From assembly GCA_019787685.1 (NCBI GenBank), contig JAHNUO010000038.1, positions 1 through 64,000 of the forward strand: 64,000 nt of DNA, given 5' to 3'. Shown here one piece after another: positions 42,851-52,191 of the stretch. The notes below the pieces were generated by a model. The model worked only from the letters and a program-made list of their open reading frames with translations, made no database searches and had not been told where the DNA came from. A program made the position numbers and the translations under genes. How positions within the stretch are numbered: the first letter of the stretch is position 1; each line of letters starts with the position of its first letter. Source of the stretch: Chiua virens (taxonomy: Eukaryota > Basidiomycota > Agaricomycetes > Boletales > Boletaceae).

Positions 42851-43690
42851 TCAGGTCGCTGATATCCCTCCCCCCCCCTCGCCGGCCGTCCCGCTATAGC
42901 GATGCGCCTGTCCGTTCCAGTGTCTTCGCAATGTCCATTCGTCCTCCATCATGCCCTTCGCCTCCTCTGCAAGATCCACGAGATGTTCTTTGACCTTGCC
43001 TTCCAGTTCGTGGTAAGTGTGTTCCGCATTGCATAGATATTCTTCCCATGATTCATTCACCATTTGGAAACCCGTGCCCATGGTAAGCATACCAGAAAGC
43101 GACACCGGGCTCGGACATCGCTCGAGGAATGCGGGAAGGACTTGTGAAAAGACCTTGTGTGTCACGGAGACATCATTGGCGCAGTACCCAAGGTAGTCCT
43201 GGATACCGTCGAGAATGGCCTCTCTCGACGAGGTCATGAAATCCCCACGGATTTCCTTGTCGACATCGATGTTGCAATATAGCTTGGCTACATCCACAAG
43301 GGCGTTGGCAGATGTGAGGTCTTCCCAGTGTTGCTGTGAGAGTTCAGCGTCGCTCGCGTCTGCATCGCCTTCCTGGAGCTGAGGCAGACTCTCCTCAATC
43401 TCAGCGCGCAGACGACGGAGTTGGGCGCGCCGTGAAGCATCCGCCTCCGACTCTTCTTGCAAGGCAGCATTGTGCATAATCCCAAGAGCTGTTTCTATAG
43501 CCTCGGCGCGCCGTTCGACACGCGCGGTTTTCGTCTTGTGATGTTTTATCCACGCCGGTCGTTGATGCGAGGATATACCATTGACGGCGACATGAAGCGA
43601 CATCGTGCCCACGAACCGTGTCCGTGTACCCGCGAGACTATACTCTTCGTGGATGCGCTGCCGGGCATACGCACCTCAGGCAGCACTTTT
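42851..43690 (-). pseudogene. MIP1: Fragment of mitochondrial DNA polymerase gamma (exonuclease domain)
   Basis: About 260 residues from the middle of the catalytic subunit of mitochondrial DNA polymerase (normally over 1,000 residues): RQRIHEEYSLAGTRTRFVG, TMSLHVAVNGISSHQRPAWI, LTSANALVDVAKLYCNIDVD, YLGYCANDVSVTHKVFSQVL, PAFLERCPSPVSLSGML and VNESWEEYLCNAEHTYHELE. The left part of the enzyme and the whole polymerase domain are absent. Similarity stops near 42900. Near 43665 the frame slips (PEVR and ARQRIH lie in different frames). The exo II aspartate, in DTMS of animal and fungal enzymes, is Gly here (VGTMSLHV). The upstream end runs into the terminal repeat of the hairpin element at 43672. 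A non-functional, translocated fragment. Confidence 0.8.
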
Positions 43691-43716
43691 TTCAAACTCC
43701 GATGGTCTTTCAGACC
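43679..43716 (+). repeat. Left terminal inverted repeat
   Basis: 38 bp beginning GGCAGCACTTTTTTCAAA and ending GGTCTTTCAGACC, the reverse complement of 49840-49877 with two mismatches. Its outer half overlaps the end of the polymerase gamma fragment. Immediately inside is a 49-bp module (43704-43752) made of two GGTCTNNNAGACC palindromes around AATTTTCGTTGTAGG. Confidence 0.8.
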
Positions 43717-44139
43717 AATTTTCGTTGTAGGTGACAATAGGTCTCTTAGACCGGCCTCGTTGGAGGCCTCTGGGCCCAAATTTAGCTTGGGCCCAGCTTG
43801 GGCCTCGAACGAGGCTCGCAGGTGCCTCGAACGAGGCCGCATTTGTCCCCGTTCATGCCTCCTCACGCCTCCTCGTCCTCACCTCCCGATGTGCCCGGAT
43901 GACACGACGTCACGGTGCTCGCCGGCCCTCACCTCGTCCGATGCGCACGGCCAATGTGCCTGCCACCGTCCCGCCCTTGCCGTCCCTGCCCTCGCCCGAC
44001 GCGCCCGGATGTCACGATGTCATGCTGCTCGCCGGTCCTCCCTCGTCTGATCGGCGCACGGTCCCGACGCGCCTGCCATCGTCTTGCCTTCACCTTGCCC
44101 TTCCCTCCCTCACCCCTCTCGCCATGTCCTACTGGACGA

Positions 44140-45770
44140 TGACGACGACGTGATAACCGCAATCATAGTGCGGTTATCACATCGTCGTCATTGTCGTCAT
44201 GACGCGCTTCCCTCCCCTCATCACCTCGTCCGATGCACACGGTCCCGACGCGCTCGCCATCATCTCGCTCTTGCCCTCCTCGCCCTCTCACCTCTCGCCA
44301 CCGTTCCCACTCAACGATACGGTTATTGTGACGACGTCGCCGTCATCGTCGCGTCGTGTTTTGTCGCACCATTTCGGCCTTCCCTCGCCTCTCCCCTTGT
44401 CCAATGTGGATGTGCACGGCCCCGACGCACCCGCCGTCATCACGCCCTCGCCTTCCTTGCCCTCTCCTCACCCTCTCCTCACCCTCTCCCCTTGTTCCAC
44501 CTGAGGATAACAACGACATGACAATCGCGTATTGCGATTGTCACGTCGTTGTTGTCGCATCGCGTTTTTTCACATCGGGTCGCCCTTCCCTTACCTCGCC
44601 ACCTTGTCTGACGCGCAGTCCCAACGCGCCCGCCGTCATCTCGCCCTCACCCTCACCCTCCTTGCCCTCGACTGGCACTTCCGTCGCCCTCTCCCCCCGG
44701 GCCGTTCCACCCAATGACGACGTTGTGGACCTCGCCACCTTGTCGATGCACACGGTCCCAACGTGCTCATTGACATCTCACTACCACCCTCCTTGCCCTC
44801 AGCTCCCCCTTCCCTCATCCTCGTCTCACCCAACTTCGACAACGACATGATAACCGCAATTGTGCGGTTATCACGTCGTTGTCGCTGTCGTGTTGCTCCT
44901 CCCTCACCCTCGCCCCTCATCCCACAGGACGATGACAACGACACGATATGTCGTTGTCATCACGTCGCACCCTTCCCATCATCGCACCCAACGACAACGA
45001 CACGATAACCGCGATACTGTGGTCATCGTGTCGTTGTCGCTGTTGTCGCATCGTTTTCGTCATCGTTGTGTCGCGTCGCGTTGCCCCTCCCTCGCCCTAT
45101 CCTCCCATCCGACGACGACGACGCGGTAACCACGTTGTCGCGTCGCGTCGCCCTCCATCACCTTTCGTGTCATCCCACCCGATGACGACGACACGATAAC
45201 CGCGGTATCGCGGTTATCATGTCGTTGTCGCGTCGCCTTTCCCTCACCTCGCCCCATCCGACGATGACAGTGGCGCAATACCTGCATCGTTGTCGACATC
45301 GCGTTGCATTGCCCTTCCAGCACTGGCACCTCAGGCTCTCACCTGACAACGACGACGACATGACGACGACGACATGATAACCATGTCGTCGTTGCCGCGT
45401 CGTCATCATTGTCGCGTCACCTTTACCTTTCCTCGCCCTCTCGCCCTTCTCTCTCCTTTCCTGTTCGTCTAGAATACCTGTGACAATGACACGACAACCG
45501 TTGAGACACGGTTGTCGTGTCGTCATCACTGTCCTTGTTGCGCCGCGCCGCGCCTCCCTCTCCCTTTCTACACGTCTAAGATGGCTCGCACGACGACGAC
45601 AATAACACGGTAATCATCGCGTCGCGTGTGGGTCACGTCGTCTTCGTCTTCATTATTGTCATCATTGTGACATGGCGTCATTCATGCTTCCTTCAGGTTT
45701 CCGATCACGAGGATAAGACAACGACACAATAACGAGAGCACAGTTATCGTGTCGTTGTCATCATCCTCTG
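44140..45770. repeat. Left hairpin array
   Basis: Imperfect inverted repeats with centres near 44164, 44535, 44861, 45015, 45206, 45508 and 45740, plus weaker ones. The best unit (centre 45206) has arms GACGACGACACGATAACCGC and its complement around a 4-nt loop. Spacers of 100-300 bp are runs of CCTCGCCCTC type. The conserved core GATAACCGC...GCGGTTATC recurs, while arms drift between ACG and ACA/ATG triplets. Confidence 0.85.
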
Positions 45771-46239
45771 AGTCGCCGTGTCACGTCGGTGTCGGCGTCA
45801 TCGTTGTGATTGTCGAACATTTGAACTTCACGTGCACATCGACAAACACCCACTCTCGCTCCTTATTAGGAAATATTGTGGCATGCTTGATATGTCGTGT
45901 TTCAGAAATGGTAATATGTTCTTTCTCTTTTTCCCTGCTTCCTCACAGTACATCACGTCATTTGTCTGTATATATGCAATGTGATGTACTATTATATGTG
46001 TGTGAATGCTCAATTTGGGACATGAAACCTGATGTACAGTGATAATGTGGATTTGTTGGAAAAAGAAAAACATGACCGCTTTTTTCAAACATTCAGGTAA
46101 TGCCCCATGAATAAAATATTCTCTGGGAGGTTTAAAACATATCTACAACATATCAGCAGCACAGATCACCAGGATCAGTCCTGGTGATAGTTGTGTCACA
46201 TTCTTCTCCTGACCCATGTTTCACCTTCCCATGCTTTCA

Positions 46240-47222
46240 CAGTGATCTAGCTCCCCCAGAATTGTGTATGTATTGTTGTATGATTTATGCCTATGTATTC
46301 TGCCATATATATCACTGCCCACAATGTCTTAAACATTATCTAGGACACATTTATTACTTTTGTGCAATGAATATATTTAAAGGGCTTTAAAGGGTATATT
46401 GTCAGGGCAATGTTGTATTATCCTGGCTCCTATGCTACTCTAATACTTTCTATTTTACTGTATTTTTTGGATGAGGATTGAAGACGTGAGGAGCGACTCA
46501 AACATATGAGATGCGTGGGAAACCATGTGAAAACTTAGGAGACTTTGAACACAAATCAAAAACTTGACATTATGGCTTCCACAACACTTCAGGAACCAAT
46601 CTAAACAGTAGATAATGTATGTAGAATGCAATAGAACTCGTGTACACCATGTGCCTAGCTTATTCTATTTCTAAGACACTGGAAACTGCAAAAACACCTC
46701 TTCAGTGCAATTGCTTCAATGTCAACATGATTGTGTGTATATGCTCAAAGTAACCTCATGGAATGCATGTTCGCAATTTTGATGTCTTAGGAATTAGGAT
46801 AGGCTAGGCACACAGTGTACACATGTTATATGGCATGTTAAATAGATTATCTACTACTTAGAATGGTGCTTAGGGCGTTGTGGAAGCCACAATGTCAAGT
46901 TTTTGATTTGTGTTCAAAGTCTCCTAAGTTTTCACATGGTTTCCCACGCATCTCATATGTTTGAGTCACTCCTCATGTCTTCAATCCTCATCCAAAAAAT
47001 ACAGTAAAATAGAAAGTATTAGAGTAGCATAGGAACCAGGATAATACAACATTGCCCTGACAATATATCCTTTAAAGCCCTTTAAATATATTCATTGCAC
47101 AAAAGTAATAAATGTGTCCTAGATAATGTTTAAGACATTATGGGCAGTAATATATACAGTAGAATATCTATATATACATCATTCAATGAGGCCTGCATAA
47201 TTTGGAGGAAGCTGGATCACTG
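46240..47222. repeat. Central palindrome with 450-bp arms
   Basis: Arms 46240-46689 and 46773-47222 are inverted copies around an 83-nt spacer. Long near-identical segments include the TTTAAAGGGCTTTAAAGG / CCTTTAAAGCCCTTTAAA pair (46376-46393 and 47070-47087) and the AAACTTGACATT / AATGTCAAGTTT pair. Decayed similarity continues outward to about 46165 and 47290. The segment is AT-rich, unlike its flanks, and has no ORF of note. Its transcript, if any, would form a long hairpin. Confidence 0.85.
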
Positions 47223-47339
47223 CTGAAGCCTGATAAAGTGAAAGAGAGGAGAATATCACAACTATTACAGAATCAGTATCAGTAGGATCATTATTTGTTA
47301 TGTGATTGGCTCGGATCATCCTGTAGAATTACAATTGCA

Positions 47340-48327
47340 CCACCACGACACGACAATGTGACACAGCACTGTCATGTTCTTGTGCTGTCACATCGCATGT
47401 CGCACTTCCCTCGTCAAGTTGTCCCCCCTTCCTTCCTTACCTGTTGTTCCGCTGTGATGACACACCACTGTGTCATACCATCCACCCTCAGGCTTCAAGT
47501 TGCCTCGTCAGGATGATATATAGGGTTCTGCATGGGTACGGGTCACACTCTTGTGACCCGTGCCCATACCCATACCCGTAGCACGAGTTATGTACGCGTG
47601 CACGGGTACAGCTACAGGTATGTGTTCTCACCTTGTCCGACGGCAACGACGACGACGCGATAGCCGTTATAATGCAGTTGTCACGTCGTCGTCGTCGCTC
47701 TCCCCCTCGTCGCCGCCTTCACATCACCTCAACTTGCCTCTCCCTCAACTTGTCGACCTCGCCCTCGCCTCACCTTTCGCCCCACCTTGCCTGACGACGA
47801 CGACGTGATAACCGCTATAACGCGGTCGTCACGTTGTCGTCGTCCTCATCGCTCTCGCTCTTGCCCTCGTCGCCTCGTCTTCGCATTCATCACCTCACCT
47901 TTCGCCCCACCTTGCCCGACGACGACGACGACGATGTGATAACCGCTATAACGCGGTTGTCACATTGTCGTCGCCCTCGTCGCTCTCGATCTTGCTCTCG
48001 TTGCCCTCGTCTTGGTGGCACCTTCATCACCTCACCTCTCGCCTCATCCCGCCTGACGATGATGACAACGATGACAACGACAATGTGATATGGTTATCAC
48101 GTTGTCATTGCCTTCATTGCTCTCCCAGTTGCCTTCGTTGCCCTCGTCGTCATTGCCTTCGCCTTGCCTCACCCCTCACCTTGCCTGATGATGCCAACGC
48201 CAATGCCAACGCCAACAACGTGATAACCACTATAACGCGGTTGTCATGTTGTCATCGTCGTCGCCCTCGCCTCTCGCCTGACAAAAACAACGAAAACAAC
48301 GCGACAACCACAATAATGCGGTCGTCA

Positions 48328-48367
<40 letters not shown>

Positions 48368-49310
48368 GCCCTCGTTGTTGTTGCCCTCAGGCTCGCCTTG
48401 CCTTGCCTCTCCTCTCCTCGCCCTTCCCTCGCCTGACGACAACGACGACGACACAATAACCGCGTTATCGCGGTTATAGCGCCGTTGTCGTTGTCGTTGC
48501 CATCGTGTCATTTGGCAGGCCGGAGTGGTGAAGTGAAGGGGTGGGCGTGGGCCACGTGGCACGGTTATTGCGTTGTCATCGTCGGGTGGGACGGCAGAAA
48601 AGGGTGGGGAAGGGCGACACGACGACGATGACGACGACAACGACAACGACGCGATAACTGCAACACCGCGGTTATCGCATCGTCGTTGTCATTTCCAGTG
48701 GGGGAGACGAGGCAAGAGGGTGAGAAAAGGGCAAGGAGGGCGAGAGCAGGGTGAGTGCGACGGCATGGTGAGGACTGGGCGGGATGGGAGCAAAATGACG
48801 ACGACGACGACAATGACGCGACGATCACGCTAACGTGATTATCGCGACGTTGTTGTTGCCATCGCCATCGCATCGTTCGACAGGCTAGGGTATGAGGACG
48901 AGGATGCCACGAGGATGACGATGCGACAGCAATGACACAACGACGACGACATGGTCATCATGTCGTTGTCGTCATGTCGTCATTGTCGGGTGGGATGAGG
49001 GGGGGAGCCTGAGGGAGCTAGTGATGGAAGGGCGATGCAACGCGATGTCGACAACGTGGTTATTGCGTTGTTGTCATCGTCGGGTGGGATGAGGGTGAGG
49101 GAAAGGCGACGCGACCCGACGGGGGCAACGCAACGACGACGACGCAACGACAGCGACAGCGACACGCTGGCCGCAATACCGCGGTCATCGTGTCGTTGTC
49201 GTTGGGTGGGATGATGGGAAAGGGTGGGGAAGGGCGACGCAATGACGCAACGACGACGACGACGACGACGACAATAGTGCGTCGTTGCCATTGTTGTCGC
49301 CATCGTATCA
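47340..49310. repeat. Right hairpin array
   Basis: Hairpin centres near 47668, 47818, 47948, 48092, 48232, 48315, 48467, 48665, 48830, 48955 and 49177, with the same GATAACCGC core and ACG/GTC triplet arms. Spacing in 47668-47948 is fairly regular, about 130-150 bp. A (TTG)13 tract sits at 48329-48368 on the arm of one unit. Near 47540-47570 there is also a GGGTCAC...GTGACCC hairpin. Confidence 0.85.
48501..48563 (+). repeat. 63-bp direct repeat, copy 1
   Basis: Begins CATCGTGTCATTTGGCAGGC and ends CACGTGGCACG. It matches 49301-49363 at about 57 of 63 positions, at an offset of exactly 800 bp, showing segmental duplication inside the right array. Confidence 0.85.
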
Positions 49311-49363
49311 TTTGGCAGGCCGGGGTGGTGAAGCGAAGGGGTAGGCGGGGGCCGCGTGGCACG
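49301..49363 (+). repeat. 63-bp direct repeat, copy 2
   Basis: Second copy of the repeat at 48501-48563, each preceded by a hairpin arm and followed by different sequence. Confidence 0.85.
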
Positions 49364-49839
49364 TGTGCGTTCATGCCGACGCACAGAAAGCAGTGGGGCG
49401 GGGCAGCGAGAGCAGGGCGTCGAACGAGGCCGAGCAGGCGTGAGACAGGAGGGGCGGGAGCATCCGTGCGTGTCGGGAGGATGAGGACAGGGATGCGACG
49501 GCGTCGGACTACTGGCACGTGCACGTCGGGCGCAGCAGCGGGGCGAATGTGGGCGGGCAGGGCAGGTGTGTCGGGAGGTATCGAGGCTCGGTCAGGGCTC
49601 GGGAGTGGTTCTTGCAAGGCCTCGACGATGCCTCACGAGGGAGGGCGAGGGCAATGAGGCACGGTCGAGGCTCGTGAGAGGTCCTCGTTGACAGCATACA
49701 GGTTTCGCGGATGGCTGCGAGACAAGCTTGCGAGGCAGATGAGGAACTGCGTAATCATATTTGGCCTATTTTGGCCTATGGTGGTGAGGGAGGCGAGTGG
49801 TGGGGTCTCTCAGACCAATTTTCCTTGTAGGCGGTAAAT

Positions 49840-49877
49840 GGTCTGAAAGACCATCGGAAGTTGAAAAAAGTGCTGCC
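49840..49877 (-). repeat. Right terminal inverted repeat
   Basis: GGTCTGAAAGACC followed by ATCGGAAGTTGAAAAAAG and TGCTGCC; pairs with 43679-43716. A second copy of the 49-bp module (49804-49852) overlaps it, and this module is in direct, not inverted, orientation relative to the left end. Confidence 0.8.
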
Positions 49878-49884
49878 AAGGGTG

Positions 49885-50385
49885 CAAAGATTTCGTTCAT
49901 CATAGTTTAGAACGTGGCCGGAGAGTTACATAATCCGAAGTACATGACGATGGGTTCAAATGACCCGCTGTAGAAAAGTAATGATAGGTGATAAGAAGAA
50001 AGGTGGGGCGATAGGTTCGTCCCAAGGGGGGTTGTGTTTGAAGAGATGATGGATTCAGGTTTGTCTAAGAGTCCTAGAGGCTGCTGGACAATCCGGAATG
50101 AAAAGCGGTCGATGTAAAAGTATCCGGGTGGCGGCGAGGCGATGAGAGTATTGATTCAAGTAGATGAGACGCCGAGGAACGATAGGACGAAGTAAAAGAG
50201 AAACTATCCAGCTCACTCACACACGGGAGAGTAAACAGGAGATCTCCTGAACGCAGAAAGACAATATTTTTGTGTTAGAAACATGGTTTTATAGTCCTGG
50301 GCATAACCCAGGACTGTTAAAGGTAATCCGACCCTAAGTAAGTGTACAGGATTGACGTAGGGTGAGTATGGAAAGAAGGGGTGTC
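49885..50385. other. Retroelement-like flank of the LTR insertion
   Basis: No gene. The minus strand has an LTR-promoter look (a CTATAAAAC box near 50290) and resembles in layout the stretch around 54280. It is probably part of an older LTR into which the element at 50386 inserted. Confidence 0.4.
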
Positions 50386-50940
50386 TGTCATATACCACTC
50401 CATTCTCCGTTCCTCCGGATACAACTCCGTACCTCTTAGATGATAACTCCGGGTCGATCTCCCTCAGGACGCAACTCTGCAACCCCGGACCTCCGTTACA
50501 TATATATGTTTCCTCTTTTATTTTAGTACATAACCTGTGTCTTGCTTACGAGCACAGCTCCGGCTTTCTCAGTACCCGACTTACCTCCGGCTATGTAGTT
50601 TCCCGATCTTCCGTCTTACTCAGTTCTTACCAACTCCGTTACTAATCTCCATTCCACTCCGAGTATATAAACTGTAGTACCCCGACTGTGTACCCTTAGT
50701 CTGAATATTAGTTTATTTGTACGACTCACTCTGAACACTCCATAAGACCTTGACGGTCTTTACTCCGCTCGACTCCACTTTATGTGTTGAGTCATATATC
50801 TACCTCCATTCTCCGCACGTCCAAAATATAGGGACAGACTGTGACAAGGGCGCACCACATATGGTGAAGCCAAGTCCCGTCCGACGCTACAACTCCGGAG
50901 ATCCGGAGTTGGCTACCTCCGAGTCGCATGGTCTCTAACA
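50386..50940 (+). repeat. 5' LTR
   Basis: 555 bp, TG...CA ends. A TATA-like GTATATAAA occurs near 50662, giving a plausible R region start shortly after. Confidence 0.9.
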
Positions 50941-50982: not shown

Positions 50983-52191
50983 ATGTCCTCTCACACCCGC
51001 CCTCAGACCAGTACTACTGGTATCTCTACCTTGAACCTATCTGACACTACCCGCATCCAATCCCTCAGAAACCTCCTCAGTCGCCGACAAACTCCTGAAG
51101 TCATCGAAGATTTCTGAGGTTTCTCCACTCGACTTATCACATCCTCCACCTCTCGAGCACCCGTATTCCTGGGTGCACGAACTCCGTCTTCCCGTAATCA
51201 ATCTCCGAGTATTCCAGGCTCCTCCAGGGGACATCCCTCTGATGAACCCAACTCCGGAGATGACTTCTCTGACCCTGAAACCGAACTTGCCTCTGATGAT
51301 ACCTATGGGCGATTGACAAATGCAATACAAAGTCTCACTCGCACCTCTCGTCACCCCTCCTCTAGCTCCTCCCCTCGCACTAAAGTCAGAGAACCTGATC
51401 AGTTTGATGGGACAAGCCCCTGCAAACTCCGAGTCTTTCTTGTTCAATGCAAGTTGAACTTCCAGGACCGTCCCAAGGCTTTCCGCTCAGACCGTGCCAA
51501 AGTCACATTTGCACTGTCTTATCTGAAAGGAATTGCCCTTGAATGGTTTGAACCCGACCTCCTCGAATCTGACCCCTCCGTCTCCCATCCCCTCTGGAAA
51601 GATCACTACACTGACTTCGTTCTGGAACTCCAGACGAACTTTGGTCCGCACGATCCGGTCGGAGACGCGGAGTACGAACTCCGAGATCTGTCCATGAGTG
51701 ATGGACAAAGGATCAACAAATATGTAGTTGAGTTTAACCGCTTAGCTGCTCAAGTCCGTGGTTATGGAGAAGGTGCTCTCCGTACCCATTTCTACAATGG
51801 TCTGCCAAACCGCATCAAAGACGAAATCTCTCGCGTAGGCAAACCCCCAAGGCTCTCTGAAATGCGTTACATGGTGCAAGCTATCAATGCTCGCCATTGG
51901 GAGCGCAACTCCGAGATTAATCGCGCCTCCACGCAATCCTCCAGAAACTCTGCATCTGCATCACCTCCTATCTCCGAATCCGACCAAGAATATGACTCCG
52001 ACGACTCCGACGAGTCTACCTCTGCACCCCAAGAACCTGAATCACCACTCGGTGAAGACGGTAAACTCACCTCCGTCGAACGTCAGAGACGTTTCGACCT
52101 CTTCTTATGTATGTTCTGTGGCCTCCCAGGACATAAGGCTAAGGACTGCCCCAAGTCCACTTCTCGCTCTGCGAAGCCCCATGCTACGTGA
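50983..52191 (+). CDS. Gag of the LTR element, with one in-frame TGA
   Basis: An ATG 43 bp after the LTR opens a frame (MSSHTRPQTSTTG) that meets TGA at 51115-51117 and then stays open to 52191. The body is a Ty3/gypsy-type Gag: DQFDGTSPCKLRVFLVQCKL, ALSYLKGIALEWFEPDL, FGPHDPVGDAEYELRDLSMS and YNGLPNRIKDEISRVGKP. An acidic Ser-rich linker leads to a CCHC zinc knuckle CMFCGLPGHKAKDC near the C-terminus, and the protein ends soon after. The stop at codon 45 means either a defective copy, readthrough, or a start downstream of it. No protease is fused. Confidence 0.8.

Follow-up and report, generated by a model that had tools for sequence, protein, structure and literature searches.

A gene-free hairpin element of Chiua virens shares its termini with KDZ-coding transposons

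The stretch analysed here, called the window, is 64,000 nucleotides of contig JAHNUO010000038.1 from the basidiomycete Chiua virens, and it contains a hairpin-bearing element of 6213 bp (43672..49884, plus strand). This element is very probably a non-autonomous member of the KDZ superfamily of cut-and-paste DNA transposons; it would be mobilised in trans, and its left hairpin array was probably inherited from a KDZ lineage. An earlier interpretation of the window's letters (the sequence-only reading) had proposed a non-autonomous mobile element, and this proposal is strongly supported by seven copies in the genome, target duplications at six of them, near-identity among copies and paralogous empty sites. 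The assignment to KDZ rests on the recurrence of the termini beside KDZ domains and on the exact 8-bp duplications that KDZ elements carry. The sample was one C. virens genome of 48.3 Mb in 136 contigs (labelled C1, C2 and so on), in which the window copy lies on C38.

Copies, target duplications and boundaries of the element

When the genome was searched with the element's ends, as the sequence-only reading had recommended, seven copies with both ends were recovered: the window copy (6213 bp) and those on C40 (6545 bp), C12 (6405 bp), C4 (6427 bp), C10 (6262 bp), C21 (5983 bp) and C19 (5315 bp). By their end coordinates the two-ended copies span 5315-6545 bp. Right ends of further copies lie on C26, on C2 and at C10:1789555. 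Exact 8-bp target duplications flank six of the seven copies, and all six are mutually different (TGGGTAGT, AGACGGGA, CATATAGC, AACAAGCG, TAGTTTCT and GTATGTGT). The check for a target duplication that had been suggested earlier was thus positive at these six copies and negative at the window copy, where GGCATACG stands at the left and CAAAGATT at the right.

Instead of a single copy with no empty site, which the sequence-only reading had named as the outcome contrary to its proposal, the genome holds these seven copies together with paralogous empty sites. Three paralogs of the gene at the left flank of the window copy (on C41, C42 and C17) were found, and all three are uninterrupted at the insertion point. 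The C21 copy sits inside the same long terminal repeat (LTR)-type repeat as is found to the right of the window copy, and its paralogous empty site lies in the window (50199..50206, minus strand), where AGAAACTA occurs once; the same sequence occurs twice around the C21 insertion.

Across the left 1.66 kb, the copies on C40, C12, C4 and C10 are mutually 99.3-99.9% identical (C4 was read whole, the other three by their ends only), indicating recent movement. Over the same interval the window copy is 97%, C21 92-93% and C19 78% identical to those four. Judged from these sequences, the element is a recently mobile transposon. With C4 taken as the starting state, CpG transitions account for 66 of its 175 mismatches with the window copy, and CpG bases make up 1136 of the 6427 bases of C4; this load in the window copy fits methylation and decay.

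The boundaries were set at 43672 and 49884 because the copies and their target duplications place them there, and the sequence-only reading had arrived at the same two positions. The left terminal inverted repeat (TIR; 43672..43720, plus strand) starts CACCTCAGGCAGCAC, and the right one (49836..49884, minus strand) starts CACCCTTGGCAGCAC on that strand; in a repeat search the terminal pair measured 50 nt at 88%. The 38-bp inverted ends described earlier, with 36 of 38 bases matching, were reproduced by counting from GGCAGC inwards. Counted from 43672 against its mirror base 49884, 33 of 38 bases match, and the outermost seven bases are partly unlike (CACCTCA at the left, CACCCTT at the right).

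The description of the element as gene-free was also borne out. Five open reading frames (ORFs) of at least 150 aa overlap it, one of which spans the left boundary, and none of the five had a Pfam match up to E = 0.1; the longest ORF in the element that begins with ATG is 148 aa. A hidden transposase was rejected because these five ORFs lacked Pfam matches. A tRNA or known RNA family was rejected as well, with no tRNA in the window and no Rfam match in 43200-50400.

The termini recur in KDZ-coding elements

The KDZ profile matched 124 times in this genome but in none of 14 control genomes. Genome-wide, the left terminus pattern had 52 matches against 27 for its reversed control, and the right terminus pattern had 64 against 8. 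Five of the 52 left termini have a KDZ match at most 4 kb away, correctly placed and oriented, where 0.18 were expected and none was seen on the wrong strand. Eight of the 64 right termini have such a match at a distance of 2-26 kb (1.34 expected, one on the wrong strand). For this comparison 84 of the 124 KDZ rows were used, further pieces of the same gene being omitted, and the expectation is that of uniform placement. Five places stand in both terminus lists, and all seven hairpin copies are in both. The comparison of terminus and KDZ strands also gives the orientation: the element's left end is the counterpart of the 5′ end in KDZ-coding elements.

Two of these five left termini, at the divergent loci C16:696059 and C10:26306, are 83-90% identical to that of the window copy over 60-81 bp. 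CxC1-like and KDZ matches lie about 1.0-2.4 kb inside these ends, and both KDZ matches are above the cut-off (C16:697744, 144.7 bits; C10:24308, 69.4 bits). Moreover, the exact right terminus is present in two KDZ elements, C1:321586-335470 and C29:83813-97697. Both measure 13,885 bp and are flanked by exact 8-bp duplications, GTCACATG and TTCCCAAC. The termini are thus common to KDZ-transposase-coding elements, at five left ends, at eight right ends and in two complete elements. The earlier statement that the element resembles nothing known has to be given up, since KDZ-coding elements have the same termini, and the 5′ region of one of them contains similar hairpins.

Two further features of the KDZ superfamily were found: TIRs are present, and 8-bp target duplications flank six of the seven copies, the window copy being the exception. 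A KDZ transposase (PF18758) was not found among the five ORFs searched with Pfam. Membership is claimed from the termini, the duplications and the TIRs, because a non-autonomous member has no transposase by definition.

Besides KDZ, TET/JBP dioxygenase (PF12851) was matched at 23 places in the genome, 18 of them above the cut-off; at least five of these have a KDZ match at a distance of 2-3 kb, two of them on C25 and one each on C10, C5 and C12. Near KDZ-like left ends at C2:2845370 and C32:142809, open frames resemble WD-repeat proteins by eye.

Hairpin arrays, palindrome and inverted internal copies

We counted 24 non-overlapping stems with a score of at least 10 in the element, compared with a mean of 0.3 and a maximum of 3 in 20 dinucleotide shuffles, in agreement with the roughly two dozen hairpins noticed earlier. 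At a score of at least 14 there were 13 stems in the element, none in 10 shuffles and none in each of nine other 6.2-kb blocks of the window. Folding of single-strand DNA pieces of 701 and 861 nt gave z = -10.1 and -9.0, respectively (20 shuffles each). The comparison with shuffled controls that the sequence-only reading had called for therefore returned both a hairpin excess and strong folding.

The left hairpin array (44135..45760, plus strand) has eight stems with a score of at least 14, GATAACCGC/GCGGTTATC-type cores and ACG-triplet arms, and it resembles sequence near the 5′ end of the C25 KDZ element. The AT-rich centre (45841..47340, strand unassigned, 37% GC) holds a palindrome of about 1 kb, as had been described before; its arms (46219-46671 and 46791-47243, 453 nt each) are 87% complementary and are separated by a 119-nt spacer. 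A second hairpin array (47640..48510, plus strand) has three stems with a score of at least 14 and a GC skew like that of the left array. The third array (48511..49260, minus strand) is a diverged inverted copy of left-array parts: six pieces of 96-209 nt within 48.56-49.26 kb are 70-82% identical to parts of 44.44-45.39 kb. This inverted copy is a symmetry beyond those of the sequence-only reading, and it accompanies a flip of the GC skew from -0.28 to +0.31 along the element. The core nonamer GATAACCGC is modestly enriched genome-wide (264 matches versus 171 for the reversed word) and was set aside as a genome-wide signal. Relatives of the central palindrome beyond the listed copies were seen at C1:3331221-3332471, C1:3345474-3347003 and C10:1761363-1762111; these could be old copies or a separate element.

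Hairpins in the 5′ region of a large KDZ element

Among the matches listed for a 900-bp query from the left array were weak relatives at C25:21039, C3:2505997 and C11:129848, which are 73-81% identical over short pieces and each of which is followed about 6.67 kb downstream by a KDZ domain. The relatives on C3 and C25 are enclosed by large KDZ elements (C3:2505476-2529339, 23,864 bp; C25:20530-44381, 23,852 bp) with the left end CACCTCAGGCACTAC and the right end CACCCTTGGCACCA. The 5′ region was read at C25 only; C3 was read over 401 bases around its left end, and the C11 relative is known from the search match alone. In the first 1.3 kb of the C25 element, three stems score at least 9, against a mean of 0.11 and a maximum of 2 in 100 shuffles, and none reaches this score in its 3′ 2 kb. 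Aligned by eye, five hairpins of the C25 element follow the same order as in the C19 copy, with a good match for four; in the C4 copy two of those five stand in the opposite order. Three other KDZ stretches have few hairpins with a score of at least 10 (two in 6.9 kb of C16, two in 9.3 kb of C10 and none in 1.6 kb of C1). Because such 5′ hairpins are found in the C25-type element and are few in the other KDZ stretches, the left array was probably inherited from this KDZ lineage and then amplified and inverted.

The 8-bp flanks of the two large elements are swapped: CACATTAG is at the left and GCTTATAG at the right of the C3 element, and GCTTATAG is at the left and CACATTAG at the right of the C25 element. 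This arrangement would result if two elements, both with an 8-bp duplication, had undergone a reciprocal crossover; an assembly mis-join would produce it as well. A similar crossover would explain the unequal flanks of the window copy; no partner with CAAAGATT at its left flank or GGCATACG at its right flank was present among the ends read. If the swapped flanks are real, these repeats also rearrange chromosomes.

Changes in hairpin stems among copies

Stem changes across copies were mostly one-sided. Two-sided changes, compared with the number expected for independent sites, were 2 versus 2.2 in C19 (11 hairpins), 4 versus 0.4 in the window copy (23 hairpins), 2 versus 0.9 in C21 left (five hairpins), 2 versus 1.1 in C21 right (six hairpins), 3 versus 2.2 in C2 (seven hairpins) and 1 versus 0.9 in C10:1789k (three hairpins). 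Summed over these non-independent copies, 14 were observed versus 7.7 expected, with five of the six comparisons above expectation and over half of the excess supplied by the window copy. Between the C19 reference and the KDZ element there were 4 two-sided changes versus 3.7 expected, in five hairpins paired by eye, of which hairpin D aligns poorly. These numbers suggest at most a weak excess of compensatory changes, and register shifts of the triplet arms in the alignment could produce it. A test of own versus foreign arms (p below 0.001) was discarded as biased, the hairpins having been preselected for good pairing.

Proposed mechanism and alternative explanations

In the mechanism that we propose, the KDZ transposase of a relative would recognise the common termini, inverted repeats some 40 bp long that start CACC, excise the element and insert it elsewhere with an 8-bp target duplication; mobilisation in trans by this enzyme is what we infer. 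The element would have originated from such a KDZ element by loss of the coding region, after which its hairpins would have been amplified and inverted and the central palindrome gained. Several points weigh against this account. The CxC1-like matches at C16 and C10 score 25.6 and 24.0 bits, under the Pfam cut-off of 26.9, and the right ends of these two KDZ loci were not found in the stretches read. Several KDZ frames (C16, C1 and C29 among them) contain internal stops that could represent either introns or decay, and the helper gene is putative. In the C1 and C29 elements the left terminus deviates from the pattern at three of 14 bases; the ends of both are nevertheless confirmed, because the duplications were found independently of the left pattern. 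The distance ranges of the terminus comparison were picked after the terminus lists were known. Short array matches also occur away from the listed KDZ matches (C17:471320, C29:156178 and C74:4164, among the matches listed), and the window copy lacks a target duplication.

Other origins of the element account less well for these results. Mutator-like and P elements make 8-bp duplications, and a TIR that starts CACC is not diagnostic. Elements of the hAT superfamily usually make 8-bp duplications as well (PMC12730594). The element could belong to one of these superfamilies and have KDZ-like termini by chance. This is highly improbable: KDZ domains neighbour the same termini more often than chance predicts and in the right orientation, two KDZ elements carry exact 8-bp duplications, and a KDZ element has similar hairpins in its 5′ part; the genome was not searched for transposases of the hAT, Mutator or P type. 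That the region is an assembly artefact, or a replication- or recombination-associated locus as the sequence-only reading had also considered, is scarcely credible: the missing duplication of the window copy would fit, as would the exchanged flanks of the C3 and C25 elements, which a crossover or mis-join could leave, but seven copies stand at different places and six have exact duplications. Beyond these two points, nothing was found in favour of a replication- or recombination-associated locus.

The role of the hairpins is a separate matter. They could be functionless by-products of slippage and template switching in ACG-rich repeats that persist because the termini are functional, a reading that we take seriously without favouring it. 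Hairpin number varies among copies (24 in the window copy, 26 in C4 and 18 in C19 at a score of at least 10), stem changes are mostly one-sided, and the arms are simple triplets; on the other hand, one core is common to many hairpins, of the five hairpins paired by eye between the C19 copy and the KDZ element, four align well, and a weak excess of two-sided changes is still possible. It is unlikely that the hairpins and palindrome supply double-stranded RNA for silencing, whether of the element or by it. The strong folding, the 453-nt palindrome arms and the share of CpG transitions between the window copy and C4, which fits methylation, would be consistent with such a source, but there is no Rfam match in the region and CpG decay is expected from silencing of any transposon. 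Tentatively, the hairpins could instead be palindromic binding sites for a transposase or regulator, whose multiplication would make the element a good substrate. This idea comes from the palindromic cores just inside the end of a transposase-coding relative, which resemble the subterminal repeats of Ac/Ds and Kat1. By extension, and no less doubtfully, the KDZ lineage might use its 5′ hairpin array as a platform for transposase recognition or control, which the parasite would have multiplied and mirrored, out-competing its helper for the enzyme.

Comparison with known systems

Miniature inverted-repeat transposable elements (MITEs) are non-autonomous, non-coding elements of a few hundred bp, below about 1 kb, with TIRs and target duplications. 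The present non-autonomous KDZ-type element shares all of these properties except size, being 5.3-6.5 kb long, and has few copies. Helitrons have neither TIRs nor target duplications, whereas the element has both. Foldback elements have long, repeat-built TIRs that make up most of the element; here the true TIR is short, and the inner arrays are partly inverted copies of each other.

KDZ transposons have been reported from several fungal groups and algae. Cryptococcus KDZ1 is about 11 kb long with 241-bp TIRs and 8-bp duplications, and KDZ2 and KDZ3 have TIRs of 139 and 169 bp and duplications of 4-8 bp; KDZ and CxC1 domains are present (PMC12810828). Like these basidiomycete elements, ours has TIRs, 8-bp duplications and termini common to KDZ-domain elements (CxC1-like in two), but it lacks a transposase, carries hairpin arrays and a palindrome, and has TIRs of about 40 bp rather than 139-241 bp. 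Among the other fungal groups, Zisupton makes 8-bp duplications, Kyakuja makes 7-bp duplications and is without TIRs, and Dileera is also fungal (PMC12730594); the 8-bp duplications and TIRs of the element set it apart from Kyakuja. The brown alga Ectocarpus has giant elements that include KDZ and others without a transposase that are presumed to be mobilised in trans (PMC12477816). Both these and our element are large and without transposase, but the giants carry other genes, whereas the element is mostly hairpin arrays with no recognisable gene. The Tm1 Mutator/Foldback family of root-knot nematodes has transposase-coding, MITE-like and hairpin-motif members (PMC3169594), but it belongs to the Mutator superfamily, with 9-bp duplications and composite TIRs of variable length. 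Subterminal repeats are present in two members of the hAT superfamily, maize Ac/Ds and Kluyveromyces Kat1, and those of Kat1 are reported to matter for its endonuclease activity (PMC3260210, PMC4763223); the hairpins of the element are likened to such repeats by analogy.

Among the titles and abstract openings of the top-listed open-licence literature, we recognised neither a hairpin-bearing KDZ element nor a non-autonomous one built like this, and found nothing on how a KDZ transposase recognises its ends. One genome here contains a parasite, a possible helper lineage with similar hairpins and young, near-identical copies, which makes end recognition directly testable.

Sequences flanking the window copy

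The insertion of the window copy breaks off a mitochondrial DNA polymerase-like gene (PF18136) after GGCATACG; a piece of this gene lies at 42851..43671 on the minus strand. Named relatives of this gene were found in Melanogaster, Leucogyrophana, Rhizopogon, Gymnopus and Termitomyces. All five genera are Agaricomycetes, and the first three are Boletales. Compared with the paralogs, the gene is not resumed to the right of the element; instead, there are 81 bp of other sequence (49885..49965) that match none of the target-gene paralogs and contain no target duplication. The LTR-type repeat comes next (49966-50285) and has at least 40 other scored matches in the genome, 92-98% identical. Farther along the window, gag-like ORFs were seen at 51313 and 57574.

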